From a virus, in the IMG/VR virus record IMGVR_UViG_3300002514_007835, positions 1-47,698 of that record: a stretch of DNA of 47,698 nt. One strand, given 5' to 3'. A model generated the notes under the pieces. The model had not been told where the DNA came from and made no database searches. It saw nothing but the letters and a program-made list of their open reading frames with translations. The translations under genes and the position numbers were made by a program. Numbering within the stretch: position 1 is the first letter of the stretch; each line of letters opens with the position of its first letter. Shown here one piece after another: positions 1,273-47,253 of this stretch.

Positions 1273-3186
1273 ATGTTCATTAATCCATTTGAGACGGCTC
1301 CAAAGCTGTCAATTCCAGAAGACACAGACATAGTCTTCGTCGCCGACATGTTCATTGAGGACTATATCGGCGGTGCCGAGCTGACCACTGAGGCTCTCAT
1401 CGAGTCTTGTCCGTTTAGCATCTTTAAACTTCACTCCAAGGATGTCACCATGGAGTTGTTAGAGGAGGGTGTCAGAAAGTACTGGATCTTTGGTAACTTT
1501 GCCTCGTTGAATCATGAGTTGATTCCGTCAATCGTTGCCAATATGAGGTACTCTGTCCTTGAGTACGATTATAAGTACTGCAAGTATCGATCTCCAGAGA
1601 AGCACCAGGTCGCAGAGCGACGTCCGTGTGCATGTCATAATGAGATGAATGGCAAGGTAGTGTCAGCTTTCATGCACGCCGCCAAGTCTATATGGTGGAT
1701 GTCGGAGGCACAGGAGTCCCGGTATCTGGAGATGTTTCCGTTCCTGCTGGAGAACAATAGGACAGTCCTGTCGTCGGTATTCAGCGATGATTTTTTCGTG
1801 ACGCTGAAGGCCCTTCGGCACAAGTATGATGGTGCTGAAAGGTCTGGCTGGATTGTCCTCGGCTCTCCTTCCTGGATAAAGGGTGCCGATGATGCTATCC
1901 AGTGGTGCAAGGATAATGACAAGGAGTATGAGTCGCTTTGGGGTCTAGACTACGAGTCTGTACTGGAGAGGCTCGCACAGGCAGAGGGCTTCGTTTACCT
2001 GCCGCTTGGCGGTGATACATGCCCACGCATGGTCATCGAGGCCAAGCTGCTCGGGTGCGAGCTCCATCTTAATGATAATGTCCAGCATGCAGGTGAGATC
2101 TGGTTCGACACCGATGACCTGTTCGACACCGAGGCATACCTCTATGCCGCCCGCGATAGGTTCTGGAATTCCATCAAGCACGATATGAATTATAGGCCTA
2201 CAATTAGCGGCTACACTACGACACTGGACTGTGTCAAGCACGGGTATCCCTGGAGACAGTCCATAGGGTCTCTCCTGGGGTTCTGTGATGAGGTCGTCGT
2301 CGTCGATGGTGGTTCAACCGATGGAACGTGGTCGGAGTTACAGGAGATGGCTTCAGGGGACTCCAGATTAAAGGTGCACCAGGTGGAGCGTGACTGGACA
2401 GACAAGAGGTTTGCTGTCTTTGACGGTGCCCAGAAGGCAGAGGCCAGGTCCAGGTGTACCGGGCAACTGTGTTGGCAGCAGGATGCCGATGAGATTGTTC
2501 ATGAGGATGACTATCAGAAAATTATTGATCTTGGCATTAATTTTCCAAAGCATGCGCACATTGTGTCATTACCGGTGATAGAGTACTGGGGCAGTGCGGA
2601 GAAGGTTAGGATGGACATCAATCCGTGGAAGTGGAGGTTAAGCTCTAACTTAGAACACATCACGCACGGTGTCCCGGCCCACCTCAGGAAGTATGATGAA
2701 GCCGGCAATATGTATGCGGCACCAGGAACTGACGGCTGTGACTATGTTCATACCGAGACTGGCGAGTTAATCCCACACCTAAGTTTTTATACTGAAAATG
2801 TTCATAACTGTCGATTGGCAGCGATGGCAGGCAATTCTAACGCTATGAGCCAGTACAGTCAGTGGTTCGCTAATTTGATAGACACACTCCCAGGTGTTCA
2901 CCACTATAGCTGGTATAACCTGGAGAGAAAGATTAGGACGTATCGTGATTATTGGTCACGACATTGGCAGAGCCTGTATGATATTGAACAGGATGACACC
3001 CCAGAAAATAATATGTTTTTTGACTCGTCATGGGAGGACGTCACCGATCAAGATATTACTGGCCTGGCTACTAGGCTAAAGGAAGAAATGGGAGGCTGGA
3101 TCTTTCATGAGCGAGTAGACTTCTCCAAGACGACACCACATGTTTCACTGGATAGGGGTCAACCTAAAATAATGCTTGGTGACTAG
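1273..3186 (+). CDS. Two-domain glycosyltransferase (GT-B-like N-terminus fused to GT2)
   Basis: This 637-residue protein opens the glycan island. The C-terminal half, from about residue 315, is a GT2 (GT-A) domain: an ISGYTTTLDC-type first strand, the nucleotide-binding segment EVVVVDGGSTDGTW, and a DAD triad in QQDADEIVHEDD near residue 405 that would bind metal and sugar nucleotide. The N-terminal ~300 residues resemble a GT4-type GT-B protein, with a GSPSWIKGADDA segment and a VYLPLGGDTCPRMVIEAKLLG stretch like the donor-binding region of that family. It probably adds two sugars in sequence. GAGG at 1262-1265 sits 7 bases before the ATG. The stop overlaps the next GTG start (TAGTG). The GT2 assignment is firm; the N-terminal family is inferred. 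Confidence 0.8.
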   Translation: MFINPFETAPKLSIPEDTDIVFVADMFIEDYIGGAELTTEALIESCPFSIFKLHSKDVTMELLEEGVRKYWIFGNFASLNHELIPSIVANMRYSVLEYDYKYCKYRSPEKHQVAERRPCACHNEMNGKVVSAFMHAAKSIWWMSEAQESRYLEMFPFLLENNRTVLSSVFSDDFFVTLKALRHKYDGAERSGWIVLGSPSWIKGADDAIQWCKDNDKEYESLWGLDYESVLERLAQAEGFVYLPLGGDTCPRMVIEAKLLGCELHLNDNVQHAGEIWFDTDDLFDTEAYLYAARDRFWNSIKHDMNYRPTISGYTTTLDCVKHGYPWRQSIGSLLGFCDEVVVVDGGSTDGTWSELQEMASGDSRLKVHQVERDWTDKRFAVFDGAQKAEARSRCTGQLCWQQDADEIVHEDDYQKIIDLGINFPKHAHIVSLPVIEYWGSAEKVRMDINPWKWRLSSNLEHITHGVPAHLRKYDEAGNMYAAPGTDGCDYVHTETGELIPHLSFYTENVHNCRLAAMAGNSNAMSQYSQWFANLIDTLPGVHHYSWYNLERKIRTYRDYWSRHWQSLYDIEQDDTPENNMFFDSSWEDVTDQDITGLATRLKEEMGGWIFHERVDFSKTTPHVSLDRGQPKIMLGD

Positions 3187-28131: not shown

Positions 28132-28179
28132 GTCGATTGTTTAAAACATACCGCCTTTTGTGTGTTAAATTATATTGTT

Positions 28180-28968
28180 ATGACTGAAGAATTAATACAA
28201 TTTCCTACACGAAAAAAGCACGTATCATACTCAGAGATTAGAAACTGGTCTGAGTGCTCTTTTAGGCACAAGTTACTTTATATAGACGGACTGTCGACAT
28301 TTGATGCCAGTGTCCACACTGTTTTCGGCACAGCTGTCCATGAGGCTTGCGAGAATTTTTTAAAGACTGGAGAGATGGATCCTGCTATTGCGACTAATAT
28401 GATAGTAGATGAGTGGAAGAACTATGGGTTTGAGGACGTTGATCCGTGGCTCGACAAGGCAGAGAAGATACTTGCCGAGGTTCCAGATTTTTTAAACGAG
28501 AATTTTGGCGAGTGGGAACCGATAGAGGCAGAAGAACAGCTTTACGAGACAATCCAGAACGACACCCTTAAATTTAAGGGGTTTATCGATGCTATTATTA
28601 AGACGAGGGATAAAAAGGGGAATGATGTCTATTGGATTATAGACTGGAAGACAACTTCCTGGGGATGGCACGTCAATAAAAAGAGGGATTTCAAGGTGAA
28701 TGCCCAACTAATGTACTACAAGCAGTTTTGGGCCGCCAAGCATGATATTCCTGAAAAATCAGTAAAAATAGGCTTTGTCTTGCTTAAGCGAGATGGAAAG
28801 ACTGGAAAACGCTGTGAGCTGCTACCAGTATCATTTGGGCCAAAGTCAAAAGAAAAGGTTGACAAGCAGCTCCGCGGAATGCTAAAGTCAGTTAGGTCTG
28901 GAATGTTTATTAAGAATAGATTATCATGTCGATTTTGCGAATTTTATGAAACGGAATACTGTACTTAA
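28180..28968 (+). CDS. PD-(D/E)XK nuclease with Fe-S cysteines (Cas4/AddB-like)
   Basis: 262 residues from the ATG at 28180; an in-frame GTG at 28162 would add six residues with no supporting context. The RecB-family core shows VFGTAVHEACE (catalytic His), LKFKGFIDAII (Asp) and WIIDWKTT (D-x-K). Cys26 in SECSF and three C-terminal cysteines in CRFCEFYETEYC (250, 253, 261) match the four-Cys layout of Fe-S-containing Cas4/AddB nucleases. It would be a 5'-to-3' or end-processing DNA nuclease in phage recombination or replication, not CRISPR, since no other cas gene or array is present. It is flanked by the two of the clearest gaps, so it is probably its own transcription unit. Confidence 0.85.
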   Translation: MTEELIQFPTRKKHVSYSEIRNWSECSFRHKLLYIDGLSTFDASVHTVFGTAVHEACENFLKTGEMDPAIATNMIVDEWKNYGFEDVDPWLDKAEKILAEVPDFLNENFGEWEPIEAEEQLYETIQNDTLKFKGFIDAIIKTRDKKGNDVYWIIDWKTTSWGWHVNKKRDFKVNAQLMYYKQFWAAKHDIPEKSVKIGFVLLKRDGKTGKRCELLPVSFGPKSKEKVDKQLRGMLKSVRSGMFIKNRLSCRFCEFYETEYCT

Positions 28969-29018
28969 TTAACTACTGTTATTTTGTGGGTAAATTTAAC
29001 TAAGCAGAGGAAGTGACA

Positions 29019-30275
29019 TTGGAAAAGAAGAAAATATTAATGCTGTGCGACCACCCGCTTTCCACATCGGGTGTGGGCTGCCAGGCTAGGTTCCTAATAG
29101 ATGGACTTATAGCCACAGGTGAGTACTGTTTTAGGGTGCTGGGGGGTGCTATTAAACACAATGACTACTCCCTTGTCAAGGTGAATGATGATCTTCTCAT
29201 CAAGCCAGTCGATGGCTTCGGAACGCCAGATATGCTCAGGCACCTACTGGCTACAGAGAAGCCTGACCTGCTGTTTCTCTTTACAGACCCAAGGTTTTTT
29301 ATCTGGGTCTGGGAAATGGAGGATGAGATTCATCAGGTGTGTCCCATAGTCTACTGGCACGTCTGGGATAATGACCCCTTCCCAGATTTTAATAATGTGC
29401 TGTACGAGTCGACTGATCTCGTTAATTGCCACTCATATAAGACATATGAGATGGTTAGTGAAAGATTTCCTGAAAAGACAAACTTTATTCCCCACGCTCT
29501 TCCACAGAACCTATACTTTCCTCTCCCACAGGCAGAGATTAATAAGTTTAGGACGCAGCTTCTTGGCAAAGAACGTCGCGATCACTTTATAGGATTCTGG
29601 ATAAATAGAAATGCGAGACGAAAAATGCCGTCTGATGTCATCGAGGGCTGGTCTAGGTTTTTAAATGAGCTGGAGGAGAAACACGGCCATCGAAATGCGA
29701 CGCTTGTTATGCATACAGATCCTGTTGACCAGGAGGGGCCTAACCTATTCAAGGTGACCGAGCTGTTCGATGTGCAGGATAATGTATTTTTCTCCACCGA
29801 GAGGATTGAGTTTGAGAAGATTAATATCCTTCACAATATCTCTGATTTTTGCATTAATATAGCCTGCAATGAGGGCTTCGGTCTGGCCACACTAGAGTCA
29901 ATGCAGGTTGGCAAGCCTATTATTGCCCTTAAAACTGGAGGCCTCACACGACAGGTTGTGGACCATCGCGATGGCAGCGAAAACGGTATTGCCCTGGATC
30001 CAGATGTTCGAAACCTTGTAGGCAGTCAGATGGTACCCTTTATTTACGAGGATCACGTCGATAACCAAAAGGTAGCTGACGCTTATATGAAATTGTATGA
30101 ACTGGGTCCTGAAGGAAGAAAGGAACTCGGCCAAAAGGCTAGAGAGTATGTGCTGAGTGAGTTTGCAATTCACGACACGATATCAGCATGGAATAGCACG
30201 ATGACTGATACTATCAATACGTGGAAAAATGACAGGACAAAGATTTATAAGGGCTGGAATTTGGAGACCATTTAG
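29019..30275 (+). CDS. GT4 family glycosyltransferase
   Basis: 418 residues from the TTG at 29019, preferred because AGAGGA (29006-29011) then has a 7-base spacer; the GTG at 29013 has almost none. The N-terminus ILMLCDHPLSTSGVGCQ is the GT-B acceptor-domain glycine loop. FIGFWINRNARRKMPSDVI near residue 195 and FCINIACNEGFGLATLESMQ near 283-302 hold the donor-binding region, including E-G-F-G-L-x-x-L-E (E-x7-E). It is full length for GT4, unlike the ~300-residue versions in the island. It follows the nuclease after a 50-base gap and precedes another GT4 by two bases. The acceptor could be DNA, a virion protein or a host glycan. Confidence 0.85.
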   Translation: MEKKKILMLCDHPLSTSGVGCQARFLIDGLIATGEYCFRVLGGAIKHNDYSLVKVNDDLLIKPVDGFGTPDMLRHLLATEKPDLLFLFTDPRFFIWVWEMEDEIHQVCPIVYWHVWDNDPFPDFNNVLYESTDLVNCHSYKTYEMVSERFPEKTNFIPHALPQNLYFPLPQAEINKFRTQLLGKERRDHFIGFWINRNARRKMPSDVIEGWSRFLNELEEKHGHRNATLVMHTDPVDQEGPNLFKVTELFDVQDNVFFSTERIEFEKINILHNISDFCINIACNEGFGLATLESMQVGKPIIALKTGGLTRQVVDHRDGSENGIALDPDVRNLVGSQMVPFIYEDHVDNQKVADAYMKLYELGPEGRKELGQKAREYVLSEFAIHDTISAWNSTMTDTINTWKNDRTKIYKGWNLETI

Positions 30276-30277
30276 AT

Positions 30278-31429
30278 ATGAAAAGAGTTTTATTAAGAGG
30301 GCCTGCTCTTACGCAGTCCGGATACGGGGTCCATTGCCGTCAGGTTGCCAGGTGGCTCCTGTCCAAAAAGAACATTGACCTGAGCGTGCAGGCACTGCCG
30401 TGGGGGATCACCCCTTGGCACTTAAATACAGACGATAAGCTGACGCTTGACATCATGCAAAGGTGCAGGCCTGTTGAGCCCAGCTATGACGTAACGTTTC
30501 AGGTTCAGCTGCCTAACGAGTGGGATGCATCGCTCGGAAGGTATAACGTGGGAATAACAGCAGGTGTCGAGACCGATCGATGTAATCCAGCATGGATTCC
30601 AGCATGCAGCGCTATGAATCGGGTGATAGTGCCATCATCTCACACCATGAGTTCATTCCAACACTACGGTAAGATTGACAATATGTCAATCATACCAGAG
30701 TCATTTCCTGACAGTCTTTTAAGTCCTACTAACGAGGTATTATTTGACCTCGACACAGATTTTAATCTTCTTGTTTTTGGGCAGATAACTGGTAATAACC
30801 CGGAAAATGATAGAAAGAATATCTATCACACCGTCAGGATGCTGTGTGACGTGTTTGCTGACAACTCGAATGTCGGAATTGTTATTAAGACCAACAGCGG
30901 TAAATCGACAAAGATCGATCGACATGTCACCAGGAATATGTTAGGCCAGCTTATAAATCAGGTGAGGCGCGGCCCATATCCAAAGTTTCACTTTTTACAC
31001 GGCACACTCAGCGACAGTGAGATTACATCGCTCTATACACATCCTAAGATTAATGCCCTAGTCACACTCACACGAGGTGAGGGCTTTGGCCTTCCAATTT
31101 TAGAGGCCGCCGCCAGTGGACTCCCGGTAATTGCCACTAACTGGTCTGCATACTTGGACTTTATGAACAAGGGAAAATTTATCTCTATTGATTACAGTCT
31201 TGGCAAAATACATCCTAGCCGTTGTGATCCTAATATATTTATGGCAGACGCCCAGTGGGCAATGCCAGTCGAAGATGATTTTAAGGATAAGATTAAAAAG
31301 TTTTATAAGAAGCACGATAAGCCACAGGAGTGGGCCCAAGAGCTGTCCACAGTCATTAAGGAAGAGTACAGTTTTGAGGCGATAGCCTCCGCTTACGATT
31401 CAAATTTTGACCAAATTTTAGGGGCTTAA
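30278..31429 (+). CDS. GT4 family glycosyltransferase
   Basis: 383 residues. VLLRGPALTQSGYGVHCRQV is the N-terminal acceptor-domain glycine loop, NVGITAGVETDRCNPAWI follows, and LVTLTRGEGFGLPILEAAASG near residues 265-284 is the GT4 donor-binding E-x7-E. LVFGQITGNNPENDRKN near 164 starts the second Rossmann domain. It pairs with the GT4 gene two bases upstream; the two probably act together. They lie beyond the nuclease gene, outside the island proper, next to late-transcription and tail genes, so they could belong to the phage's older gene set. Confidence 0.87.
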   Translation: MKRVLLRGPALTQSGYGVHCRQVARWLLSKKNIDLSVQALPWGITPWHLNTDDKLTLDIMQRCRPVEPSYDVTFQVQLPNEWDASLGRYNVGITAGVETDRCNPAWIPACSAMNRVIVPSSHTMSSFQHYGKIDNMSIIPESFPDSLLSPTNEVLFDLDTDFNLLVFGQITGNNPENDRKNIYHTVRMLCDVFADNSNVGIVIKTNSGKSTKIDRHVTRNMLGQLINQVRRGPYPKFHFLHGTLSDSEITSLYTHPKINALVTLTRGEGFGLPILEAAASGLPVIATNWSAYLDFMNKGKFISIDYSLGKIHPSRCDPNIFMADAQWAMPVEDDFKDKIKKFYKKHDKPQEWAQELSTVIKEEYSFEAIASAYDSNFDQILGA

Positions 31430-35067: not shown

Positions 35068-35559
35068 ATGGCCGTAACAGGACGAGTTATAGATTTTAAG
35101 AGCGTGGGCGACCGGACGACAGACCTCATCGCCGACGCACAGCCCGCTGATCCGACGCCTATTGGAATCATGACTCCAATGCGCTTGGGGACCGGCCAGG
35201 GTGGCCTCTTCGAGATGTACACATCATTAAAAATGACGCTGAATGATAACCTAAAGAACTTACTGCTGACAGACCACGGCGAGCGGCTGGCTTTTCACGA
35301 TTTTGGAGCCAACCTGACACCGTTGGCTATGGACCTCTCCGCTTTCGATCCAGATGCGTTTGATGCCGAGGCAGCCATTCGTATTAAGACTGCGGTCACT
35401 AAGTACATGCCATTTATACAGCTGGAGACGTTTGAGTCCAGGGTGGACCATAGTGACAACAAGAGCGTTGGTAAGGTAATTATCAGGGTCAATTACAGCA
35501 TCCCGAGGCTTGGTGCCAAAGACCTGGCCCAAGAGGTTACCATATTCGTGGGAGGATAG
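35068..35559 (+). CDS. gp25-like baseplate wedge protein
   Basis: 163 residues. PIGIMTPMRLGTGQGGLFEM, then NDNLKNLLLTDHGERLAFHD and FGANL are the conserved core of the T4 gp25/P2 W family, which links the inner baseplate to the sheath and has lysozyme-like ancestry but no lysozyme activity. The C-terminal beta part (KVIIRVNYSIPRLGAKDLAQ) ends in EVTIFVGG. Length is close to T4 gp25 (132) plus an N-terminal extension of about 30 residues. The following gp6-like gene starts one base after its stop, which matches the usual gp25-gp6 partnership in the wedge. Confidence 0.9.
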   Translation: MAVTGRVIDFKSVGDRTTDLIADAQPADPTPIGIMTPMRLGTGQGGLFEMYTSLKMTLNDNLKNLLLTDHGERLAFHDFGANLTPLAMDLSAFDPDAFDAEAAIRIKTAVTKYMPFIQLETFESRVDHSDNKSVGKVIIRVNYSIPRLGAKDLAQEVTIFVGG

Positions 35560-35560
35560 C

Positions 35561-37405
35561 GTGGCGATAAATATTAAAAAGAAATTCTTACCGGTCAGGA
35601 ACCGGTCATACCTCAATCGTGACTTTGATAGTATCAGGGCTCAGCTGGTTGACTATGCCCAAATATTCTTTCCTGATAGGATCTCCGACTTTTCAGAGGC
35701 CTCTGTGGGTGGCATGTTCCTGGACTTTGCCTCATTTGTGGGTGATAACCTATCATTTTATCTCGACCATCAGTTTTCAGAGCTTAATATAGAGACTGCA
35801 GTTGAGTCACAGAATATCGAGCGCATGCTCCGTACAGCTGGTGTCCAGATAGCCGCAGCATCCCCGGCGGTGGCGTGGGTTGAGTTCACCATCAATGTAC
35901 CAGCCGAGAAGATCGATGCGTCATATTTTCCTAAACTGGCGCTGCTGCCGGTGATAGTCCGAGGGACAATTGTGACATCACAGGATGGTATTGACTTCGA
36001 GCTGACAGAGGACATTAACTTTGCCGGTAAGGATACCCTGGGGAATTTTATTGCCACCTCAGAACTTAGTACAACATCGGCCGACGGCACTCCAACTTCA
36101 TTTAATGTCAAGATGGCAGAGTTCTGCATATCTGGTAAAAGGGCCACACAGAAGTTCACATTTGCCAATACATTCGTTCCATTTCGAAGCATAACACTGT
36201 CTAACGCCGGAGTCACTGAGGTGATCAGCGTTAAGGACACAAATCTTAACCAGTACTATGAGGTTCAGTCCTTGACACAGGACAACGTGTTTGTTGCTAT
36301 GACAAATGCCAATATAGATCGTGAGCTCGTGAAGGAGAACCTAGAGCTCAAGCCGGCTCCCTATCGTTTCGTGTCAGAGGTTGGATTTAGCAGCAAGAAG
36401 ACCAAGTTGAAATTTGGAAGTGGAGACGCCAACACTCTCGATGATGATATAGTTCCAGATCCGTCCCAGTTCGCTGTTCCCCTCTACGGAAAGCGGACCA
36501 TGACACGCTTCTCTATCGACCCAAATGACCTGCTAAAGACTAGGACCCTGGGTGTCTCCCCGCAGAACACCACGCTTACTGTGGAGTATCGATACGGCGG
36601 AGGCCTCAATCATAATGTCCCGGCCAAAGCTCTCCAGACAATAACCATGCTTAAGATAAGGTTTTTAAATGGTGGCAGCAGTAATGGCATGCGATCTGTT
36701 CGTGCTAGCATGAAGGCTACAAATCCAAATGCTGCTGCCGGTGGTGAAAATGCTCCCACCTTGAACGAGCTTAAAATGATGATCCCATCAGCAAGAAATT
36801 CACAGTCGAGAATCGTCACCAAGGAGGACTTGCTCGCCCGCGTCTACACGATGCCGTCTAACTTCGGTCGTGTCTACCGTGCCAGCGTCAGGTCAAATCC
36901 CATAAATCCCCTCTCAACCCAGTTGTTTATAATCAGTCGTAACATGCGGGGCTCCCTGACTATATCACCCGATGCCCTAAAGAAGAACCTCGTTAAGTAC
37001 CTAAATGAGTACAGGATGATATCTGATGCTGTTGATATCCTAGATGCTGCCGTGGTGAATATTCAGGTTAGATTCTCGGTCACAGTCGATCCTAACGCCA
37101 ATAAGACGGCAGTGATCCAGGACGCCATTGCACAGATTACGAATTACTTTAAGATTAATAACTTTCAGATAGATCAGGTCATTCCAATTTCCGACCTACA
37201 GAATATATTATTTAACGTGCGTGGCGTCATCACGATTACAGATTTAAAGCTGTATAGCTTAAGTGGCAATTACAAGGGTCGACCATACGCAGAGACGTCA
37301 TTTGATGTGGCTCAGAGCACTATTAAGGGACTAATAGTTCCTCCCATTGGAGGAATATTTGAGGTCAAATATCCCACCGCTGATATTATTGGGAGTGCCA
37401 ACTAA
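35561..37405 (+). CDS. gp6-like baseplate wedge protein
   Basis: 614 residues from the GTG at 35561, supported by GGAGG (35551-35555) five bases upstream; an earlier in-frame ATG at 35510 lies inside the gp25-like gene. RNRSYLNRDFDSIRAQLVDY near residue 14 and EASVGGMFLDFASFVGDNLS near 45-65 are typical of the gp6/J-like wedge family, and FYLDHQFSELNIETA follows. A long beta-rich middle leads to SRIVTKEDLLARVYTMPSNF near 420 and a C-terminal domain with VNIQVRFSVTVD. In T4, gp6 dimers form the ring of the inner baseplate with gp7 and gp53. It is close to T4 gp6 (660 residues) in size. Confidence 0.88.
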   Translation: MAINIKKKFLPVRNRSYLNRDFDSIRAQLVDYAQIFFPDRISDFSEASVGGMFLDFASFVGDNLSFYLDHQFSELNIETAVESQNIERMLRTAGVQIAAASPAVAWVEFTINVPAEKIDASYFPKLALLPVIVRGTIVTSQDGIDFELTEDINFAGKDTLGNFIATSELSTTSADGTPTSFNVKMAEFCISGKRATQKFTFANTFVPFRSITLSNAGVTEVISVKDTNLNQYYEVQSLTQDNVFVAMTNANIDRELVKENLELKPAPYRFVSEVGFSSKKTKLKFGSGDANTLDDDIVPDPSQFAVPLYGKRTMTRFSIDPNDLLKTRTLGVSPQNTTLTVEYRYGGGLNHNVPAKALQTITMLKIRFLNGGSSNGMRSVRASMKATNPNAAAGGENAPTLNELKMMIPSARNSQSRIVTKEDLLARVYTMPSNFGRVYRASVRSNPINPLSTQLFIISRNMRGSLTISPDALKKNLVKYLNEYRMISDAVDILDAAVVNIQVRFSVTVDPNANKTAVIQDAIAQITNYFKINNFQIDQVIPISDLQNILFNVRGVITITDLKLYSLSGNYKGRPYAETSFDVAQSTIKGLIVPPIGGIFEVKYPTADIIGSAN

Positions 37406-38964
37406 TGTATCGAATACTACAGGCTATCAAGGATGGCTACATAACCAATAAAATTATTAATAATAAATTTAGGGCTACCGATGCCAATACCGGTGAGGCA
37501 GGCACCCTGGACTTATTTAAACTCTATGACGAGAGCAAGCTTCCCGGCTCAGGTAGTGGTGTAATTGAAATATCACGACTGTTGGTTAAGTTTGACCTGG
37601 ATCCACTCCGGGCGCTTACTGGCAGCATCTTGGATATTGGTGACTCCTCGTTTTCGTGTCACATGAAGCTCTTCGATGTTATTGGTGGGCAGACAGTTCC
37701 TTCTAATTTTAACATTGCGATATTCCCTCTTTCCAAGTCATTTGATGAGGGCATCGGTCGAGATGTTGTATCATTTAATGATATCGATGCCTGCAATTTT
37801 GTCACGGCATCTTACGCCAATGGCACCACGACGACCTGGACTGTAGACGGTGCAGACCAAGCAGGCCTTCTAGGCTCTGATAACTTGGATATTATTTCCA
37901 GCGGTAACCTGAATGATGGCGGCGGAGTTGTCGACCTGTTTAGGACACAGGCATTTACCAATGGAAGCGACAATCTCTACGTAGACGTGACACCAATCAT
38001 ATCGGCAACTATGGTAGGCGCCGTCCCAGATCACGGCTTTAGAATATCATATTCAGGAACGCTGGAGACAAATAGTCGCACGCTATTTGTCAAGAGGTTT
38101 GCATCAAGGCACTCCACTAACACCTCTATCCGTCCTCGTTTAATTGTTAGATATGATGACACGATTAGCGACAATAATCAAAACTTTTTCTTTGACCTGA
38201 CAGGCTCTGTATTTCTTAACAACTATCATAGGGGAGTTCCTAGCAATATAGTTGAGGGTACAGGCGCTACAGAAATTTCAGGAGATAATTGCATTAAGTT
38301 TAAGGTAGAGTCTGGCTCATTTAGTAAGGTCATAACAGGCTCACAGTTTAAGATAGGCAGCAATTTTATTACCGGAGTCTATTCAGCATCATTTGCAATT
38401 TCTTCATATGACGCCAGCACGATCACCGGTAGCGACACAATTAAGAGCTTCGCAAATAAGAGTGGCTCCCTGACATTTGACACTACGTGGGCTTCATTTG
38501 ATAACACATCAACGAACCCATACCTTTCAGGTGCACTTAAGATAAGCGCAAACCAGAGGTCGTCATTTTCTAATACACCAAGGCGATTGGTGGTGTCAAT
38601 TACGAATGCCGAGCCCACCTATAAGACAGGCGAGAAGGTCAGGTTCAGGATCTTTGTTGATGATATAGATTACAGCCCTATTACTTCTAAGTTACCCATT
38701 ATTCGACCCAGTCTCATTCTTGATAACATGTACTATCGCATACTCGATAATAACACCGGAGATATTGTAATCCCATTCGACACGTCCTCTGGAACTGGAA
38801 AGTCTGCGACCAAGCTCTCTACAGACTCCAAGGGCATGTATTTTGATTTTTACATGAGTGACCTGTCCATCGGCCGATCCTATAAGGTGGAGTTCCAGAT
38901 AAATGATAGGGGCATGACACAGGTAATTGATGATGTTGGAATATTCTTTAGGGTAGATGTGTAA
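37405..38964 (+). CDS. Baseplate-associated structural protein, unknown fold
   Basis: 519 residues. The N-terminal ~250 residues contain GVIEISRLLVKFDLDPLRAL, KLFDVIGG and RTLFVKRFASRHSTN, which loosely resembles the beta-rich DNRLRE-type adhesion domain (short strand with L-x-K-F-D-L). The rest is Ser/Thr/Gly-rich beta sequence, ending with YKVEFQINDRGM and VGIFFRVDV. No catalytic residues are seen. Both junctions are TAATG, between the gp6-like gene and the tail_P2_I-type gene, so it is very likely part of the wedge or its outer attachments. The precise role is unknown. Confidence 0.6.
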   Translation: MYRILQAIKDGYITNKIINNKFRATDANTGEAGTLDLFKLYDESKLPGSGSGVIEISRLLVKFDLDPLRALTGSILDIGDSSFSCHMKLFDVIGGQTVPSNFNIAIFPLSKSFDEGIGRDVVSFNDIDACNFVTASYANGTTTTWTVDGADQAGLLGSDNLDIISSGNLNDGGGVVDLFRTQAFTNGSDNLYVDVTPIISATMVGAVPDHGFRISYSGTLETNSRTLFVKRFASRHSTNTSIRPRLIVRYDDTISDNNQNFFFDLTGSVFLNNYHRGVPSNIVEGTGATEISGDNCIKFKVESGSFSKVITGSQFKIGSNFITGVYSASFAISSYDASTITGSDTIKSFANKSGSLTFDTTWASFDNTSTNPYLSGALKISANQRSSFSNTPRRLVVSITNAEPTYKTGEKVRFRIFVDDIDYSPITSKLPIIRPSLILDNMYYRILDNNTGDIVIPFDTSSGTGKSATKLSTDSKGMYFDFYMSDLSIGRSYKVEFQINDRGMTQVIDDVGIFFRVDV

Positions 38965-41900
38965 TGAGCAGGTCCGGCCCATTCTCATCGGAGTTCGTTA
39001 GAAATCTAGTCGAAAGGGGTGGAGAAGTTTCTAATAAGACTTCATCCGACCTCGCCGGCCTAGAGATTACTTCCACGTCTTCATTTAGGTACGATGGACC
39101 CGGATCAGGCCTAAAGTCATCCCAGCAGGTTAACGTTGACTTTTCCCTGTTTGCGAATCACTCCTTTTTCTCCTCGGCTCAGGTTAATGTCAATGTCGCA
39201 TTTGACAGGGTTATTAATGAGTTTCCATTTGATGGCACCAATAATGAGTACAATGAATTTTTGGATAAACTGACTGGATTCGAGAACTATGTCCTCGGAT
39301 TGTTTCCTACCAGTCGTGGCTTTCTATACTTTAGTGGATCTTCTGAGGTGTCTGTTACCGGGGCGGGAGTCGGCACCCATGTTTCCCTAGTCGATGCAGC
39401 TGGTAGTCTTTTTCCGGAACTGTCCAAGGATAAGAGTGGTAAAAGTGTCCTCAATCCAGACTACAAGTCGCTTTCTATCGAGTCGCACATATTTCTCCCT
39501 GCCGTAACCAACACGAATCAGGTTATCTATCAAAAAGTCCAGGATGGAAATACTGGCTTTTCGTTATTCCTGTCTGAGTCTTCTTCAACGACGTCTGCGT
39601 CCCTGTATTTTGCTGTGTCGTCAGGATCGCAGCAGGCAACGACTAGTATGATGCTCAACAAAGGAGCCTTTAAGCACGTAACAGCTATTTTAAACAGAAA
39701 TGCAGCGAGTGATACCTTGGAGCTTTATCTGGACGATGATATTATCAGTTCTTCGAGCGCTAATGTCACGTTTGATAAATTTGATATCGACAATGCGCCA
39801 TTCATGATAGGGTCCGGAACTATACACAATAGGGTGGCACCTGGGGCCATTAGTTTTGTGCCTGCGCAAACTTTTTCTGGTGCGCTTGACGAATTACGAA
39901 TTTTCCACACAGCACGGGGCAGGGATGATATACTTCAGTTCGCACAAAAGGGAATATTTGCGTCAGAAGAGCTGAAGCTATACTACAAATTTAATGAGCC
40001 CTCTGGATCTTACACTTCCAATAATATAGTCTTGGACAGCTCTGGAAACTCTCTACACGGAACAATAGCTAACTTTACGACTTCTTCTAGGGAAGCAGCT
40101 GGTTTGGCCAATCCCATAACTTACGAGTTAGAGGCCAGGAATCCCATCCTATTTCCTACCTACACCCCTCTAGCAACCATAAACTCTGACCTGCTCACCA
40201 GCGCCAGCAGGTATGATGATCACAACCCAAACTTGATCACCAGATTAGTGCCGCAGCACTACTTCCTGGAGGGAGAGGCATATGAGGGTTTTGAGAACGA
40301 GGAGGGAACTATAGTCGAGAGTTTTACTGGAACCAGCATACCTGGCAGCGGAAAGTTAGGCACCGCGCAGGTCATGTCGGCATTCCTTTATACTTGGGCT
40401 AAGGAGTTGGACGAGCTGAAAATAATCCTGGACTCTTTCGGCAGGCTTTTGCATATCGACTATGACAAGAATGAGAATATACCAGACCAGTTCTTGGAGT
40501 TCCTGGCAAGCTACTACGGTATGGAGCTTCCCTCAATATTCTCCGACGCGTCATTTCGACAGTTCTACGACGGTGATGACCTGCTCACCACCGCTGGTGC
40601 TCAACAGCACGGTCTCAAGTTCGTACAGAACGAGATCTGGCGCCGGATTCTCATTAATATTCGAGACATAATCGACTCCAAGGGAACCATCCATTCAGTC
40701 AAGTCAATAATCCGCGCAGTCGGTATTAATCCAGATAATAACTTTCGAATCAGGGAGTTTGGTGGCCCGACAAAGGGTGCCCTTAAGGTCTCTAGGCAGA
40801 ACAAGTCAGAGGTATCTTCCCTGCTGGATTTTTCTGGCTCGCTGGCTGGTGTGACATCTACCACCAATGCCCAGGGAATTCCAAATAATAAGCCATTCCT
40901 GATGAGTCCATTCCTGTCAGGTGCCAGGAACGAAGTAGGCTACCCAGAACCACAGGGGACATTCGTCAACCAGTCACCCATGAATGTCCACGGCACCTCT
41001 AACGATCCTGACGACGGCCTGTTCACATCCGGCTCGTTCACATACGAGGGGATCTACAGGTTTCCATTCCTACTGTCAGGCTCCTATCACAGCAGTCAAT
41101 CACTGGTCAGGCTTCATGTGACAGGTGGAATGGGAAGTAAGACGTCCCAGAATCACGGCGTCCTGTCTAACCTCGTTGCGGTTTCTGGTACGAACAAGGT
41201 TAAGCTATTCGTCAGGCCATTTGCATACACTTACGATGAGTTTCCTGAAACGCAGGAGCTGGTCCTGGACGGTCCTAACCTATTCGATGGCAATGCGTGG
41301 AATATTTCATTTGGACGCATTAGGTCAGATGATTCGCAGTTACTTCCCATAGAGCGAAATGGCATCTCCTCGTCCTACTTCATCAGGTGCGCCCGTCAAA
41401 ATTTTGGCACGATAGAGGAGACATATGTCACCAGCTCGTTCTCCATTTCTAATATGGGATTTAATGTCTTTAATGCTACGAATGTCGGTACCTATAATAA
41501 ATCGGGCAGTTTTATCTGCATAGGTTCCCAGTCACTTGCTGTTGATGATACCCTGTACCTAAATACATCGGGTGTCAATGCTGCAGCCAGGTCCACATAT
41601 TTTGATGGACGAGTCGGGCAGATGAGGTTCTGGTCCCGAGGTCTCCAGAAAGTGGAGTGGCTTGAACACGTTCGTAACTTTAAGTCCCTGGGTGTCCAGG
41701 ATCCACTGGTCAAGTTTAACTTTGTTACCATGCCTACAGGTTCCTTCGGAAAGCTTCGGCTTGACGTGTCAGCAGATCAGATCGAGACCCAGTCTAACGG
41801 TGTCGGAGGCATCACACTATTTGACTATACACAACACCGCGTCGCGTCAGGAACTGCCGGTTTCCCGTGGAGAATGTCAACGGAGTCGTCACCCACTCGC

Positions 41901-42551
41901 CCTGATACTGTCTACCAGATGTCTGGGACAGGATTCGAGCCTAGCAGGGGTGTTATTAAGCCCGAGACATTCTACTTTAGCCTTATATCACCACGTTTCG
42001 ACGAGGCCTCCACGACCGAGAAGGTTAGGCCGAGGGGGTTCCTCGACTCTTCCCTGTTGGAGGAGTTTCCATATGCCCAGGTGGCACCAGCATATGAGAT
42101 TAGGAGGTCGGAGCAGCCCACTGATGACACTCGATTCTCAATAGAATTCTCGGTAGTCGATGCCTTGAATGAGGACATCATGACAATGTTTGCCACCCTG
42201 TCCAGTATGAATGACGCAATTGGAAGTCCTGGACTGCTTTTCTCGCCTGACTATCCTGAGTTAGAAAATATGCGTGATATTTACTTTAATCGATTAACCG
42301 ATAAGATGAACCTAAAGGGATTTTTTGAGTTCTTCAAGTGGTTCGATACGACAATTGGCTCCATACTGGTCCAGCTAATACCCCGAAAGACCAATTATCT
42401 TGGAAGTAACTTTGTCGTGGAGTCACACATGTTGGAACGCCCCAAGGTTGAGTATTACTATAGCGACATGTACCTGGGGGAGAATAATCGTCCCAATCTC
42501 AAGGGAATAATCAGGCTACAGCAGTTCGTGGGTAAGATTAGGAGGTTCTAG
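38964..42551 (+). CDS. Giant baseplate protein: LamG domains around a tail_P2_I-type core
   Basis: 1195 residues. Residues ~170-345 form a LamG/concanavalin-like domain (SIESHIFLPAVTN, FKHVTAILNRNAASDTLELYL, SGALDELRIFHTARGRDDI, LKLYYKFNEPSG). Residues ~473-608 match the P2 gpI/tail_P2_I wedge type: LDSFGRLLHIDYDKNENIPD, FLEFLASYYGMELP, RRILINIRDIIDSKGTIHSV and SIIRAVGI. A second LamG-like domain lies at ~700-915 (VGQMRFWSRGLQKVEWLEHV). It ends with a conserved-looking ~150-residue tail. In T4 the corresponding part of the wedge is filled by gp7, gp8 and gp53. The lectin-like domains suggest carbohydrate contact at the cell surface. The protein is rich in Ser and Thr. Confidence 0.72.
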   Translation: MSRSGPFSSEFVRNLVERGGEVSNKTSSDLAGLEITSTSSFRYDGPGSGLKSSQQVNVDFSLFANHSFFSSAQVNVNVAFDRVINEFPFDGTNNEYNEFLDKLTGFENYVLGLFPTSRGFLYFSGSSEVSVTGAGVGTHVSLVDAAGSLFPELSKDKSGKSVLNPDYKSLSIESHIFLPAVTNTNQVIYQKVQDGNTGFSLFLSESSSTTSASLYFAVSSGSQQATTSMMLNKGAFKHVTAILNRNAASDTLELYLDDDIISSSSANVTFDKFDIDNAPFMIGSGTIHNRVAPGAISFVPAQTFSGALDELRIFHTARGRDDILQFAQKGIFASEELKLYYKFNEPSGSYTSNNIVLDSSGNSLHGTIANFTTSSREAAGLANPITYELEARNPILFPTYTPLATINSDLLTSASRYDDHNPNLITRLVPQHYFLEGEAYEGFENEEGTIVESFTGTSIPGSGKLGTAQVMSAFLYTWAKELDELKIILDSFGRLLHIDYDKNENIPDQFLEFLASYYGMELPSIFSDASFRQFYDGDDLLTTAGAQQHGLKFVQNEIWRRILINIRDIIDSKGTIHSVKSIIRAVGINPDNNFRIREFGGPTKGALKVSRQNKSEVSSLLDFSGSLAGVTSTTNAQGIPNNKPFLMSPFLSGARNEVGYPEPQGTFVNQSPMNVHGTSNDPDDGLFTSGSFTYEGIYRFPFLLSGSYHSSQSLVRLHVTGGMGSKTSQNHGVLSNLVAVSGTNKVKLFVRPFAYTYDEFPETQELVLDGPNLFDGNAWNISFGRIRSDDSQLLPIERNGISSSYFIRCARQNFGTIEETYVTSSFSISNMGFNVFNATNVGTYNKSGSFICIGSQSLAVDDTLYLNTSGVNAAARSTYFDGRVGQMRFWSRGLQKVEWLEHVRNFKSLGVQDPLVKFNFVTMPTGSFGKLRLDVSADQIETQSNGVGGITLFDYTQHRVASGTAGFPWRMSTESSPTRPDTVYQMSGTGFEPSRGVIKPETFYFSLISPRFDEASTTEKVRPRGFLDSSLLEEFPYAQVAPAYEIRRSEQPTDDTRFSIEFSVVDALNEDIMTMFATLSSMNDAIGSPGLLFSPDYPELENMRDIYFNRLTDKMNLKGFFEFFKWFDTTIGSILVQLIPRKTNYLGSNFVVESHMLERPKVEYYYSDMYLGENNRPNLKGIIRLQQFVGKIRRF

Positions 42552-43387
42552 TGCCAATTACACCATTCGACGAGGCACCGTACGATAGGTACCAACAGCA
42601 GCCGGTAAGCGGCGGTATAAATACCAACAGTTACGATCAGTTTAGGCAGGGAATCTCCATTCGTACCGAGCGCGAGCTCTACATGGGTATGTCTCCAAAG
42701 ATGTCACCTGACAGGCAGTTTACGCCTGATAGCGGTAATAACAGCACTGTTTTTGGACAGCCCAAGGCCTTTAAGTCTGTTGTTCCATTCCAGGACCTGG
42801 AAAAGTTTCAACCTGTCGAGTTCATCAGTAGCAGTGCTTCCCCTAGTCAGCTATATCCACGTATCCTGGCAAATGCTTCCCTGACAGATCCCTACCAGCT
42901 GGATGGTGCTATCGAGCCACTTGTCATCAGGAGCGCCGTCTCAATGACCACCCTGGAGGGTGCTGATCCGGCACATGCCATTAAGGGCGAGTTCCTGGAT
43001 GGAAATATGGACGAGCGTCGCAAGGCATCACAGATAGTCCAGGTATACGACTATCGTCCTCCGGTTGAGACAAAGCCCTTCATTGACTTTCCGGAGTATT
43101 TTGGTGACACACCAAGCTCGGGAATTGTCCTTCCTGGTGTCATTTCAGCTACTGAGCCCCGGTTGCACCCATTCGATGACAAGACACAGCAGTATCGAAT
43201 GGTCTACGACTCGCCTGATTATGTTAGCGATTCCCTGACTCAAGACATGTTTGCCGCCCTTACGGCAATGTCAGGCTCTTCACAGATGATGCTGAGGTCC
43301 AACCAGGTCAGCTCGACTGCCGGGTTCGTCTACGATAATAACCCGCTGGGGACGGACTCCCTGGCATTCGGGGGATGGAAGAAGTAA
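42551..43387 (+). CDS. Virion structural protein of unknown family
   Basis: 278 residues from a GTG that overlaps the upstream TAG (TAGTG). The sequence is Pro, Gln, Ser and Asp-rich with little predicted regular structure at the start (DRYQQQPVSGGINTNSYDQF), then IEPLVIRSAVSMTTLEGADP, RKASQIVQVYDYRPP and TQDMFAALTAMSGSSQMMLR. It looks like an extended connector or a fibre-attachment protein. The next gene starts with TAATG overlap and has a strong ribosome-binding site. No recognisable domain. Confidence 0.55.
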   Translation: MPITPFDEAPYDRYQQQPVSGGINTNSYDQFRQGISIRTERELYMGMSPKMSPDRQFTPDSGNNSTVFGQPKAFKSVVPFQDLEKFQPVEFISSSASPSQLYPRILANASLTDPYQLDGAIEPLVIRSAVSMTTLEGADPAHAIKGEFLDGNMDERRKASQIVQVYDYRPPVETKPFIDFPEYFGDTPSSGIVLPGVISATEPRLHPFDDKTQQYRMVYDSPDYVSDSLTQDMFAALTAMSGSSQMMLRSNQVSSTAGFVYDNNPLGTDSLAFGGWKK

Positions 43388-46300
43388 TGGCGAAGGTACT
43401 TAAGGCTGGATATTATAATCTACTGCAACATTTTAAAGGGTACAATGCCCAAGATAGCCTTGTTCTCTGGTTGCAGATGTCGCCGTCTGAACCCACTGAT
43501 AGGACAGAAATAGCGGGTACTACACCAGCTTATGTAGGTTCCCCAACCCCAACGACGCAGCAATTTACGCTTCCACCTGGAAACAAAATATATAGGTCGG
43601 TCACATACTCCTCTATCGCGAACCAAGACGGCTATGTGACCAATTCATCAGGTCTATTCTGTTTCACATCGCTAGCAGATGGCGGTACACCAACAGCTAC
43701 AAGCGATCGACCTTTCTCGATTTCACTGTGGGTTAAATTAGATGATGCTACCACTTCGAATTACTTTTTTACAAAACGTGCGCAGGCTACCCCGTGGTAC
43801 GAGTATACTGCACTTCTAACATCATCTGGTGAAATTAGATTTGTTCTTGGAGATTCAAATGCAGGCAATGTATATGTTAGAGTAACTTCTGCTAATGTCG
43901 GTCCAAGCGGTACAGGTCAAATTCAGACTGCGACTTGGACACATTTAGCCTTTACCTACGACGGTCGAGGAGGTTCATCTCCCACGGCCGGAATGGCTGT
44001 CTATATTAATGGTCAGGCAATGTCCACGACAGCATCATCACTCGGCACATACGTAGGCATGCAGCCTGACTATCTCGATAAGCTATACCTTGGGACTGCT
44101 TATGCAGGTACTCAGGAGTTGGATGGTCAGATGGCTGAGTTCGCCGCCTGGTCGACTGAGCTAAGTGTTACAGAGGTCAAGGCTGTCTATGACATGACAT
44201 TGCTTGGTGATAACTCAATATCCGGCATCCTCAACAACCCACCCCGGACAATCCTCCGGGCCCTGGACTGCGCCACCGGCTCCTACCCGACAGTCTCAAG
44301 GATGGGCGACACCACCCGCCTCGGCCGCTACGCCACTAGCTTCGACGACCGCAACACAATCGTCTTCGCCTCCGGCTCCGACGTCACCCTGTCACTGCCC
44401 CTAGGGATCCAGATACTGTCAGGCTCCGTCGGCTATGCCTATATGAGCCAGTCGGTCGCCACGCCCAACACTAATTCCACGCTCACAGCCACTGGCATCG
44501 TCCGGAAGGGTGTCGCCGATGCCAACATCCACCTGACGCCGGGGGAGGACTTCGCCCCGTTCAAGGAGGACGGGCTCTACGTCATTAGCAAGGATGCCCG
44601 GGTCGATCCGTTCTACATGACAGGGTCCAGGATCCAGGACGTCGGTCCTGGGTTCTCACAGCCGCTCGGCGCCAAGACCAAGATAGTGTTCGACCTGACG
44701 GCTAATGTGTCATCCGCCTTTGGGTTCTATCCATCGAGTGGCACCCCGCGGCCACACTTGATGTCATACTTCGATCACGGCCTTAGGAAGTGGGTGCCTA
44801 CTGGGGAGGGATTCTTTAATTCATTCGAGCCCCCTGAGGCTGACGTCCGGTCCATGCTTGAGAATAACTGCCTGGGATTTGGGCCGACGCAGGACTCCAT
44901 CGTCGCGGAGAAGGGATTCCTGGCAGCCATGGGATTGCCTGTGTCGACATACGGCTTTCCGTCATCGGCCCGTTATCATGCCACATCATCCTGTGCTTGG
45001 CCGCTCTCAGGCGTCCTGGACCGACCATTTGTCGCCGAGAAATTTGTCTATGAGTTTAGTGCCTCATACGAGTGCAGAAACCACGGATTTACCGACATGT
45101 TCTATTGGGATGCCAACGAGAATGCCGGCAACGGGGGGTACGTGAGCATAGGCTCGAACGACGGCCCGTCAATTTCGTCTTTTTTCATACTCAACCAGCG
45201 CGGCCCATTTAAGGGCTCCGTGACACTGACATCTCCTTACACGACGGCCGCGGATCCCAATACAATTACTGAGCAGTATAGCTTCACGGAAACTCTGCCC
45301 ACCGTCACGGGAGGCCACTACGTTGATACCACACGCGACCTTGTCACGTATGGGCAGATACACGTGTATCCACAGACTGTCACCTGGCCGACGCTAGACG
45401 ATGTCGTCCCCAGCGACACTGCCACTGTCCGGAGCTTCAAAGAGTACTTTGAGGGAGTCGGTGGCTACTCACCAGAGGGCCAGAGACACGGCCGTGAACT
45501 TAATGTAGGGACTCTCCCAACTTATAATAATGTCAACCCCATGTTTGAAGGACGCTTTATCATGTCTGGAACCATGAAGGTCTGTGGCAGGAATGAGGGT
45601 GGCTATCCACTGAGGTCTAACATAGGGGGGAGCGCCAGACTTCAGCGGATGAACTGGGAATCCCATGGCCGAAATTTATTTACAATGAACACTGGCCGTG
45701 ACCTCGTCCGGGGCGCACCTGGCCAGGGCCCGGCACACCCCGGCTATAGGGTGATAACAGACCTCACCTCCACCGAAGCCTTCGGCCCACCTGTTAAGGC
45801 CACACAGGTGGTAAATTCGCCCTATTTACTAAAGCCATCTGACAGCCTAATATTTGGCTGGCAGGTACCCCCAAGCTGGAACTACTACAATCCCGACCCA
45901 GGGCCTACGGGGAAAAAGGAGCACTGGATTGAATTAGCTCCCGGCCCGTCCCGGCTGACAATCTACGGCTCCGAGGTTGCCGAGAACAAGGAGCACCACC
46001 CGGGACTCAACCAGCACCTGACGTCCGACGCCGTCCACGAGCTGGTCGGATTCCATGGTCCTCCACTTGATCAGTTTGAGACAGAGTTCAGGTCGCAGTA
46101 CAGCGGCAGTTTCCTGGCACAGGATATCGGAATCCAGCGCAGGATTGTTTCAGGCAGCGCCGGTGATGGTCACGTCCTGATATACTCATCGTCGCTTCTG
46201 CGTCGTCGCCTAGGCTCTTCAGCGACGATGAGGTGGGACGCGGGCCAGTACCATTTTACAATTGCCGCGTGTGATGGAATTGTATCTGGGACCGTCGCAG

Positions 46301-47253
46301 ATATGCGCATTCGTCCATCCAGTCAGTTTCGCAATATTCGCTGCACATCTGATGCTAACTTCTATGATTGTTACGTTCCTGCTGCCGTGGATATGATACG
46401 GGCTGTTGGACTGTATCCGTACACGGGTAACTATTTGGGCCAGACAACAGAGCCTAATGGCTACCAGTTGCTATTAAATCTCCATTCAGGAGGGACCTAT
46501 GGCGCTGGTGAGTTTAAGGGATGGTGGGCTGTCTTTCCATTCGAGCCCAGGTTTTTAGGACTCTCCCGTCGTGTCGCTGACCCGCTGCCACCGTGGCAGG
46601 GGCGTATATTCCAGGCCTTGGGCTGGGATGTCCGGATCGGGACCTCACGGTTCGGTGACAGCTCGCGTAAGAGCATCGATGTCACATGGCCATGGAATCT
46701 TAGGACTAATGGTAGCGGCGGCACTTTCCTGACAGGCAAGCCTGAGGGCGGTGGTGTCACCACCACCAGCCGTGCAGCCAAGCGATCCTTACTTACATTT
46801 ATATTTGGAATAGGAGACGCTGGCTATGGATGGGTCCAGGGTCGAAGGATCGGGGATGGCAAAGGCGGAGCCAGGACCGCGAGCGGCATGGCTGTTGACT
46901 CCAACGGGCCCATTCGAGGTTTTAAATATGGCATTTATAACACGGTTGAACAGGGTCCAATGAACTATTTCCGAGGTTCACAGTACGGACAGCTTCGTGA
47001 TATGCTGGAACAGGGCCTGGATAGCAGGATCCTGAGTCGTCGTAACGGCCGCCTGGCTCGTTCTGCTCCAGTTGTCACCATTCGCTTTGTGGACTCTGCT
47101 GGCAATCGACTTAAAAAGCAGGATCGGTACCAGACCGCATCCTCCAACCTGAGCCCGTACGCCACATCATCATTACCCTACTTTGATGGTATTGCCAATA
47201 ATCGTCCTCCAATTATGGATGCCACCCAGGGCACCAGTGTTGTGAGTATTTAA
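43387..47253 (+). CDS. Giant tail protein with N-terminal LamG domain
   Basis: 1288 residues from the ATG at 43387 (TAATG overlap, GGAAG 5 bases upstream); an ATG at 43375 lies inside the previous gene. Residues ~100-278 form a LamG/concanavalin-like domain: RPFSISLWVKLDDATTSNYF, TWTHLAFTYDGRGG, MAVYINGQAM, KLYLGTAYAGTQELDGQMAE and FAAWSTELS. From residue ~279 onward the protein is a long, beta-rich, Pro/Gly/Trp-rich body with no enzyme signature. Base composition changes sharply at about 44220, where the LamG part ends: 20 of 60 bases are G/C at 43801-43860 against 42 of 60 at 44221-44280. It is probably a receptor-contacting tail protein with an exchanged N-terminal domain. Confidence 0.68.
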   Translation: MAKVLKAGYYNLLQHFKGYNAQDSLVLWLQMSPSEPTDRTEIAGTTPAYVGSPTPTTQQFTLPPGNKIYRSVTYSSIANQDGYVTNSSGLFCFTSLADGGTPTATSDRPFSISLWVKLDDATTSNYFFTKRAQATPWYEYTALLTSSGEIRFVLGDSNAGNVYVRVTSANVGPSGTGQIQTATWTHLAFTYDGRGGSSPTAGMAVYINGQAMSTTASSLGTYVGMQPDYLDKLYLGTAYAGTQELDGQMAEFAAWSTELSVTEVKAVYDMTLLGDNSISGILNNPPRTILRALDCATGSYPTVSRMGDTTRLGRYATSFDDRNTIVFASGSDVTLSLPLGIQILSGSVGYAYMSQSVATPNTNSTLTATGIVRKGVADANIHLTPGEDFAPFKEDGLYVISKDARVDPFYMTGSRIQDVGPGFSQPLGAKTKIVFDLTANVSSAFGFYPSSGTPRPHLMSYFDHGLRKWVPTGEGFFNSFEPPEADVRSMLENNCLGFGPTQDSIVAEKGFLAAMGLPVSTYGFPSSARYHATSSCAWPLSGVLDRPFVAEKFVYEFSASYECRNHGFTDMFYWDANENAGNGGYVSIGSNDGPSISSFFILNQRGPFKGSVTLTSPYTTAADPNTITEQYSFTETLPTVTGGHYVDTTRDLVTYGQIHVYPQTVTWPTLDDVVPSDTATVRSFKEYFEGVGGYSPEGQRHGRELNVGTLPTYNNVNPMFEGRFIMSGTMKVCGRNEGGYPLRSNIGGSARLQRMNWESHGRNLFTMNTGRDLVRGAPGQGPAHPGYRVITDLTSTEAFGPPVKATQVVNSPYLLKPSDSLIFGWQVPPSWNYYNPDPGPTGKKEHWIELAPGPSRLTIYGSEVAENKEHHPGLNQHLTSDAVHELVGFHGPPLDQFETEFRSQYSGSFLAQDIGIQRRIVSGSAGDGHVLIYSSSLLRRRLGSSATMRWDAGQYHFTIAACDGIVSGTVADMRIRPSSQFRNIRCTSDANFYDCYVPAAVDMIRAVGLYPYTGNYLGQTTEPNGYQLLLNLHSGGTYGAGEFKGWWAVFPFEPRFLGLSRRVADPLPPWQGRIFQALGWDVRIGTSRFGDSSRKSIDVTWPWNLRTNGSGGTFLTGKPEGGGVTTTSRAAKRSLLTFIFGIGDAGYGWVQGRRIGDGKGGARTASGMAVDSNGPIRGFKYGIYNTVEQGPMNYFRGSQYGQLRDMLEQGLDSRILSRRNGRLARSAPVVTIRFVDSAGNRLKKQDRYQTASSNLSPYATSSLPYFDGIANNRPPIMDATQGTSVVSI

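Follow-up and report, generated by a model that had tools for sequence, protein, structure and literature searches.

Baseplate wedge proteins are known to vary greatly in size, from the 1032 amino acids (aa) of T4 gp7 to the 242 aa of XM1 gp17 (PMC10457771); according to the parts of that report available to us, flexible parts of the orthologue of gp7 in XM1 contribute to spike binding, and a lectin-type domain is not mentioned there for gp17. In the wedge of phage A-1(L), of composition (gp31)2-gp32, one of the wedge proteins has an insertion domain that reaches out and holds the long tail fibre (PMC10966104), which arrangement resembles that described below; this insertion, however, lies in gp31, the two-copy partner, and not in gp32, and the main text of that report does not contain the word "lectin". 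Here we describe P0001, a protein encoded in a 47,698-nucleotide stretch of viral DNA (IMG/VR record IMGVR_UViG_3300002514_007835, positions 1 to 47,698, hereafter the window), which protein very probably contains a divergent wedge core of the gpI/gp7 type and is predicted to carry one LamG jelly-roll before that core and a second, weaker LamG-type sandwich after it. The parts of the protein are the following:

38964–42551, plus strand: P0001, LamG-bearing wedge-type protein of 1195 aa; open from ATG to stop, with widespread relatives
39072–39314, plus strand: N-terminal helical hairpin (residues 37–117); helices of the model, seen also in three outgroup proteins
39315–40133, plus strand: predicted LamG 1 (residues 118–390), between hairpin and core; Laminin_G_3 match and fold match
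40134–40799, plus strand: probable gpI/gp7-type helical wedge core (residues 391–612); profile matches, weak Pfam matches in relatives, fold comparison
40800–41699, plus strand: putative LamG 2 (residues 613–912); beta-sandwich of the model, LamG 1/LamG 2 profile match, tandem-LNS matches
42069–42548, plus strand: conserved C-terminal helical part (residues 1036–1195); identity 0.54, low-confidence helices of the model

The open reading frame (ORF) of P0001 is real, and its architecture and gene order are conserved. A scan of IMG/VR returned 64 loci with relatives at 36–60% identity, and a profile scan at least 490 relatives (490 of 527 candidate stretches being confirmed), of which confirmed stretches 80 were kept; the whole architecture could be aligned across 40 chosen full-length sequences, the window protein counted. 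Comparison of P0001 with PHROGs gave no match, its relatives yielding stray matches only, and neither the PDB by sequence nor the named phage records by tblastn at 1e-5 contained a match, while Pfam returned a single family, Laminin_G_3. The model built on the 40-sequence alignment had a mean predicted local-distance difference test score (pLDDT) of 69.8 and a predicted template-modelling score (pTM) of 0.47, from which values we consider the folds of the domains usable and the arrangement of the domains not.

That residues 118–390 form a LamG jelly-roll is, at the level of the model, certain. Laminin_G_3 (PF13385) was matched at residues 169–323 with 47.7 bits (cut-off 27.6), and was present in 35 of the 36 family proteins, the window protein among them, for which Pfam matches were counted. 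Model residues 118–387 aligned with the LamG domain of PAPP-A at a Z of about 21 and a root-mean-square deviation (rmsd) of 2.6 over about 203 residues, the next fold matches being pentraxins and LNS domains, and a likeness was also found to 4dqa, a putative carbohydrate-binding protein. Thus LamG 1 shares its fold with the LamG/pentraxin domains of PAPP-A, PTX3, and the neurexin LNS (Z 15–21) but differs from them in sequence, with about 11–17% identity. A sequence search of the PDB with query A1 returned exclusively LamG/pentraxin-type or similar entries. The fold comparison of the whole model with the PDB effectively covered residues 117–393 only, and within that range no gpI or gp7 chain was among the matches.

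For residues 613–912, a second and weaker LamG-type sandwich is supported but not proven. The model displays the strand pattern of a beta-sandwich in this region; the profiles of LamG 1 and LamG 2 match with a score of 33.3, whereas the highest of 97 column-shuffled controls scored 21.8; and tandem-LNS chains align about 350 residues over positions 117–1001 of the model, with a high overall rmsd, as would be expected if P0001 had two LamG domains placed differently towards each other. Pfam found no Laminin_G_3 in LamG 2 of P0001, and in the LamG 2 segments of relatives found the family in three of nine, at 14.6–19.9 bits and hence below the cut-off. In the relatives L043, L047, L049, L050, L053, and L055, large insertions of 148–399 residues were observed between the core and LamG 2.

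The assignment of the intervening residues 391–612 to a divergent wedge core of the gpI/gp7 type, which we regard as very probable, comes from several weak lines taken together. The family Tail_P2_I (PF09684) was matched neither in P0001 (E values up to 5) nor in the six-frame translation of the window (up to 10), and gave weak matches in 3 of the 36 family proteins (best E 0.0017; in the relative L042, 13.7 bits against a cut-off of 20.6); Gp7_helical was likewise weakly matched in 5 of the 36 (best E 0.0086). With no match of its own above the cut-off, P0001 was not filed as a member of Tail_P2_I, and homology has to be argued separately. A profile of 13 homologues of P2 gpI aligned with residues 502–589, the stretches LP.LA...G and KGT..S......G standing in register, with a score of 32–33 and a probability of 40–45%, whereas shuffled controls reached at most 21.6 (100 shuffles, A2 core) or 25.4 (200 shuffles, A6 core) and four other segments of P0001 at most 17.2. 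Against the same core, a slice of T4 gp7 (residues 600–800) scored 34 and its 200 shuffles at most 22.5; full-length T4 gp7, either as a single sequence or as a 13-sequence profile, gave no meaningful match to P0001, only the slices matching the core, and T4 gp8 gave no match. A sequence search of the PDB with the gpI profile (A4) found the pyocin protein PA0619, and one with the core profile (A6) found nothing credible. The 80 loci returned by a scan of viral contigs with P2 gpI were all 99–100% identical and were not used.

A separate model of the core (222 residues, 90 sequences) reached a mean pLDDT of 74.6. Foldseek gave no significant match for that model; in a second fold comparison, 5 of the 12 chains with a Z of at least 2 came from contractile-tail baseplates. 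The best was chain 8kea_c of A-1(L) (Z 4.8, rmsd 4.6, 121 residues), and the others belonged to a Streptomyces injection system (Z 3.6), Pam3 (3.2), XM1 (7kh1_A2, 2.8), and KP1, whose chain of 1031 aa aligned through its residues 644–773 (2.5), a segment overlapping the segment 641–679 of T4 gp7 that the profile comparison had found. The KP1 chain would correspond to gp7 and 8kea_c to gp32; chain 7kh1_A2 we read as gp17, because its length equals the 173 residues built for that protein (1–79 and 107–200), as given in the available parts of the XM1 report (PMC10457771).

The gene of P0001 lies within a baseplate operon, where its neighbours are:

35068–35559, plus strand: gp25-like sheath initiator; GPW_gp25 at E 2e-5 and 24.7 bits, just below the cut-off of 27.2
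35510–37405, plus strand: gp6/J-type wedge protein, presumed partner of P0001; Baseplate_J at 26.6 bits, above the cut-off, and phrog_6 at E 1.9e-21
37405–38964, plus strand: conserved baseplate-operon protein of 519 aa; in 60 of the 64 loci, no Pfam or PHROG match
42551–43387, plus strand: conserved neighbour of 278 aa, possible periphery protein; in 46 of the 64 loci, no Pfam or PHROG match
43375–47253, plus strand: neighbour of 1292 aa with an N-terminal LamG of its own (residues 110–269); Laminin_G_3 at 70.9 bits

The order is therefore gp25-like, gp6/J-type, 519-aa gene, and P0001. Among the 64 loci, many of whose contigs end early, homologues of the gp25-like gene were found in 58, of the gp6-type gene in 59, of the 519-aa gene in 60, of the 278-aa gene in 46, and of the 1292-aa gene in 51, with the order kept as far as the contigs reach. 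The gene of the P2 gpI/R-pyocin wedge protein, too, comes after gp25/W-like and J-type genes, and its product has LP.LA...G and KGT..S in register with the core of P0001; gpI, however, has 176 aa and no LamG, whereas P0001 has 1195 aa and no Tail_P2_I match of its own. The resemblance to T4 gp7 consists in a large wedge protein whose gene follows that of gp6 and whose slice 600–800 matches the core above shuffles, the difference in the absence of a full-length match.

Wider homologues bear on both the core and the origin of LamG 1. The gp6-type neighbour matches proteins of Flavobacterium phage immuto, Microcystis phage Mel-JY01, and LR756508, a 484-kb uncultured phage, at about 30% over 94–95% of the length, and each of these three records has a protein of 1265–1400 aa at the position of P0001, annotated as hypothetical in immuto and Mel-JY01 and without annotation in LR756508. 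Compared with the P0001 family, the Mel-JY01 protein matched with a probability of 99.0% over profile positions 405–1148, running through LamG 2 and the C-terminal part, the immuto protein with 90.4% over the core, and the three together with an E of 4.6e-24 over 391–1139; a hidden Markov model of the core found the three at E 4.7e-17, 9.7e-15, and 2.7e-12. These outgroup proteins share position, size, hairpin, and core with P0001 but lack LamG 1 and have a longer N-terminal region. As read from their sequences, all three proceed from a hairpin-like stretch through a short linker to the core; Pfam found no Laminin_G_3 in any of them, and across the whole outgroup records placed that family elsewhere or nowhere. 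Since hairpin, linker, and core follow one another there without Laminin_G_3, and since gpI with its 176 aa is too short, LamG 1 reads as a gain, inserted between hairpin and core, the alternative being a loss in the outgroups. In the relative L047 (9953–14278), the insertion between core and LamG 2 contains an additional LamG match at 758–929, which we take as a domain gain at a second site.

The original prediction, of a 1195-residue ORF at 38964–42551 with a tail_P2_I core at about residues 473–608 sandwiched between two lectin-like domains, thus described the anatomy correctly: the ORF is open as claimed and has widespread full-length relatives, a wedge-type core does stand between two lectin-type folds within a baseplate operon, and the first LamG has a jelly-roll fold in structure prediction (Z of about 21 to the LamG of PAPP-A, and above the Pfam cut-off). 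Of the two lectin-like domains the first is certain, whereas the second rests on the strands of the model, profile likeness, and tandem-LamG matches, without a Pfam match in P0001; similarly, the tail_P2_I assignment has weak support from relatives, from profiles against shuffles, and from fold comparison but none from Pfam in P0001, and the core proved wider than stated, extending over 391–612 with the gpI-like stretch at about 502–589.

On this basis P0001 would be a gpI/gp7-type wedge protein of the baseplate, divergent and enlarged; by comparison with XM1 and A-1(L), each of the six wedges would contain one molecule of it joined to two copies of the gp6/J-type neighbour. A LamG jelly-roll would have been inserted between its hairpin and helical core, with a second LamG-type sandwich following the core, and both would most likely project outward as structural arms on which other components of the tail dock, whether fibres, spikes, or the 278-aa and 1292-aa products of the neighbouring genes, and would not be readers of host range. 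We infer the stoichiometry, the exposure of the LamG domains, and the docking role alike. In XM1 and A-1(L), as far as the available text of the two reports goes, spikes or fibres are docked by appendages of the wedge; we therefore consider an arm for docking the most satisfactory explanation, and by analogy lean slightly towards such a docking or structural function for the LamG domains. Judged by domain means of pairwise identity, neither LamG domain appears hypervariable, and there is no sign of fast-changing receptor loops: the hairpin has the highest mean (0.63), followed by the C-terminal part (0.54), the core (0.48), LamG 2 (0.42), and LamG 1 (0.40), and the LamG/core ratios are steady, at 0.84 (standard deviation, SD, 0.10) and 0.88 (SD 0.13). 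The identities of LamG 2 and of the core correlate weakly across pairs (Spearman 0.27), so that the C-terminal half may have been exchanged to some degree.

Sugar binding is common among LamG domains, so that docking is not their sole natural role, and neither of the two precedents, in the parts of the reports available, was shown to use a LamG domain. Binding of sugars by the LamG domains of P0001 is plausible from the fold, and the foremost alternative to docking, which we consider possible though less probable, is that LamG 1, LamG 2, or both bind a common glycan of the host surface upon landing, by which contact the tail would be held in place or the triggering of contraction aided. The likeness of LamG 1 to PAPP-A, pentraxins, and the putative carbohydrate-binding 4dqa would agree with such a lectin, as would the location of the gene among baseplate genes and the extra LamG gained by L047 at another site, as expected if additional binding modules pay; yet the LamG domains are hardly more variable than the core, unlike typical receptor tips, and three outgroup wedge proteins manage without LamG 1. 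Were the LamG arms to bind sugars, contact with the receptor could be coupled directly to the machinery of contraction; if, as we prefer, they dock fibres, LamG would there be a structural adaptor.

A further alternative concerns the protein itself, which could be another large protein of the baseplate periphery whose helical core merely resembles gpI. Several observations weigh on that side and against the wedge assignment: each line for the gpI/gp7 core is weak alone, with profile probabilities below 50% (40–47%), no significant Foldseek match for the core model, and fold Z values of at most 4.8, a level that the tool calls common; P0001 has no Pfam Tail_P2_I match of its own; the confidence of its model is moderate (pLDDT 69.8, pTM 0.47); and one gene without a family match sits between the gp6-type gene and that of P0001. 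We nevertheless judge a periphery protein unlikely, given that profile and fold comparison hit overlapping gp7 segments (641–679 and 644–773), that the shuffled controls stay below the core scores, and that three named records preserve both gene position and protein size.

Through the wedge assignment, a family of proteins from hundreds of uncultured phage contigs, in a large group of tailed phages few of which are cultured, would acquire a probable identity. The family would also clearly exemplify a lectin-type domain that has been inserted into what appears to be the conserved scaffold of the baseplate instead of sitting on a fibre. Wedge proteins of very different size were already known; what appears to be new is a LamG jelly-roll inserted in one of them and conserved across many contigs. 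Among the papers listed, as judged by title or the beginning of the abstract, and with most subscription journals outside the search, we found no literature report of LamG in a baseplate wedge protein.

Upstream of the baseplate genes, positions 1273–31429 of the window constitute a variable glycan cassette between fixed boundary genes, among which are:

1273–3186: GT2 gene of 637 aa, one boundary of the cassette
28162–28968: gene of the PD-(D/E)XK nuclease family (PDDEXK_1), inner boundary of the cassette; in 12 of 12 records
29013–31429: two GT4-type glycosyltransferase genes, immediately preceding the tail genes; in all 12 records

Glycan genes had been missed in the 64 loci of relatives because of the 10-kb flanks, and long records show the opposite: in 25 such records, 101 matches to NeuB, GDP-mannose-dehydratase-type, and GT2 families fell within 45 kb upstream, all on the strand of the P0001 gene, as against 1 within 45 kb downstream and 7 farther away. 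The boundary genes (1273–3186, 28162–28968, 29013–30275, and 30278–31429) had homologues in all 12 of the records compared, whereas of the 29 genes that the window has between 3186 and 28131, 21 occurred in at most 3 of the 12, and the stretch bounded by the 1273 and 28162 genes varied from 3.7 to 28.1 kb, the window counted. In contrast to the remaining cassette genes, the two GT4-type genes, which were found in 31 and 36 of the 64 loci (contigs ending early), belong stably to the operon. As a whole the cassette resembles a bacterial serotype locus, of which it would be the phage equivalent. For large phages encoding bS21, the available part of a published report describes numerous genes for polysaccharides and proposes that the surface is remodelled to counter superinfection (PMC9723584); bS21, which we sought as a link to those phages, was present in 4 of the 25 records.

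The original prediction had also raised the possibility that the LamG domains read or hold a glycan of the type made by the phage itself; such a glycan could, for example, decorate virions or be displayed on remodelled host cells. In favour of this idea, all 20 records that extend at least 20 kb beyond the P0001 gene on its upstream side have glycan genes there, in direct vicinity and on its strand, and the LamG 2/core ratio of G001 (1.02) is the highest of ten. We nevertheless regard the idea as very improbable, since the cassette differs strongly among phages and the LamG domains do not, and since G001 (the record behind L013), the only relative with homologues of nearly all glycan-cassette genes of the window, is no closer in LamG 1 (identity 0.40 to the window protein, within a range over ten relatives of 0.37–0.46), this being one informative pair and hence a weak test. 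In LamG 2, G001 had an identity of 0.48, tied for highest with G006, a phage with a different cassette. It is just as doubtful, in our estimation, that the wedge LamGs and the variable cassette form one system, in which each phage would make a glycan of its own, its type varying among phages as in a serotype locus, and the lectin-bearing baseplate would hold or sense it; were this so, the glycan might armour the virion or allow self to be told from non-self before the tail contracts.

Among the neighbours of P0001, the 519-aa protein has 36–71% identity among relatives, and in Mel-JY01 the gene at its place gave a weak CBM96 match. The relatives of the 1292-aa protein (43375–47253) diverge more, often to 25–35% identity, which much lower identity makes that protein a better receptor-binding candidate than P0001. 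Sheath genes, which speak for a contractile tail and hence for the wedge assignment, were found in 13 of the 25 records of relatives and in all three outgroup records. In 10 of the 25 (the records behind L013, L045, L046, L050, L057, L061, L062, L064, L121, and L147), two adjoining sheath-like ORFs of about 1000–1650 aa each were observed, which are unusually long for sheath proteins and are possibly paralogues.

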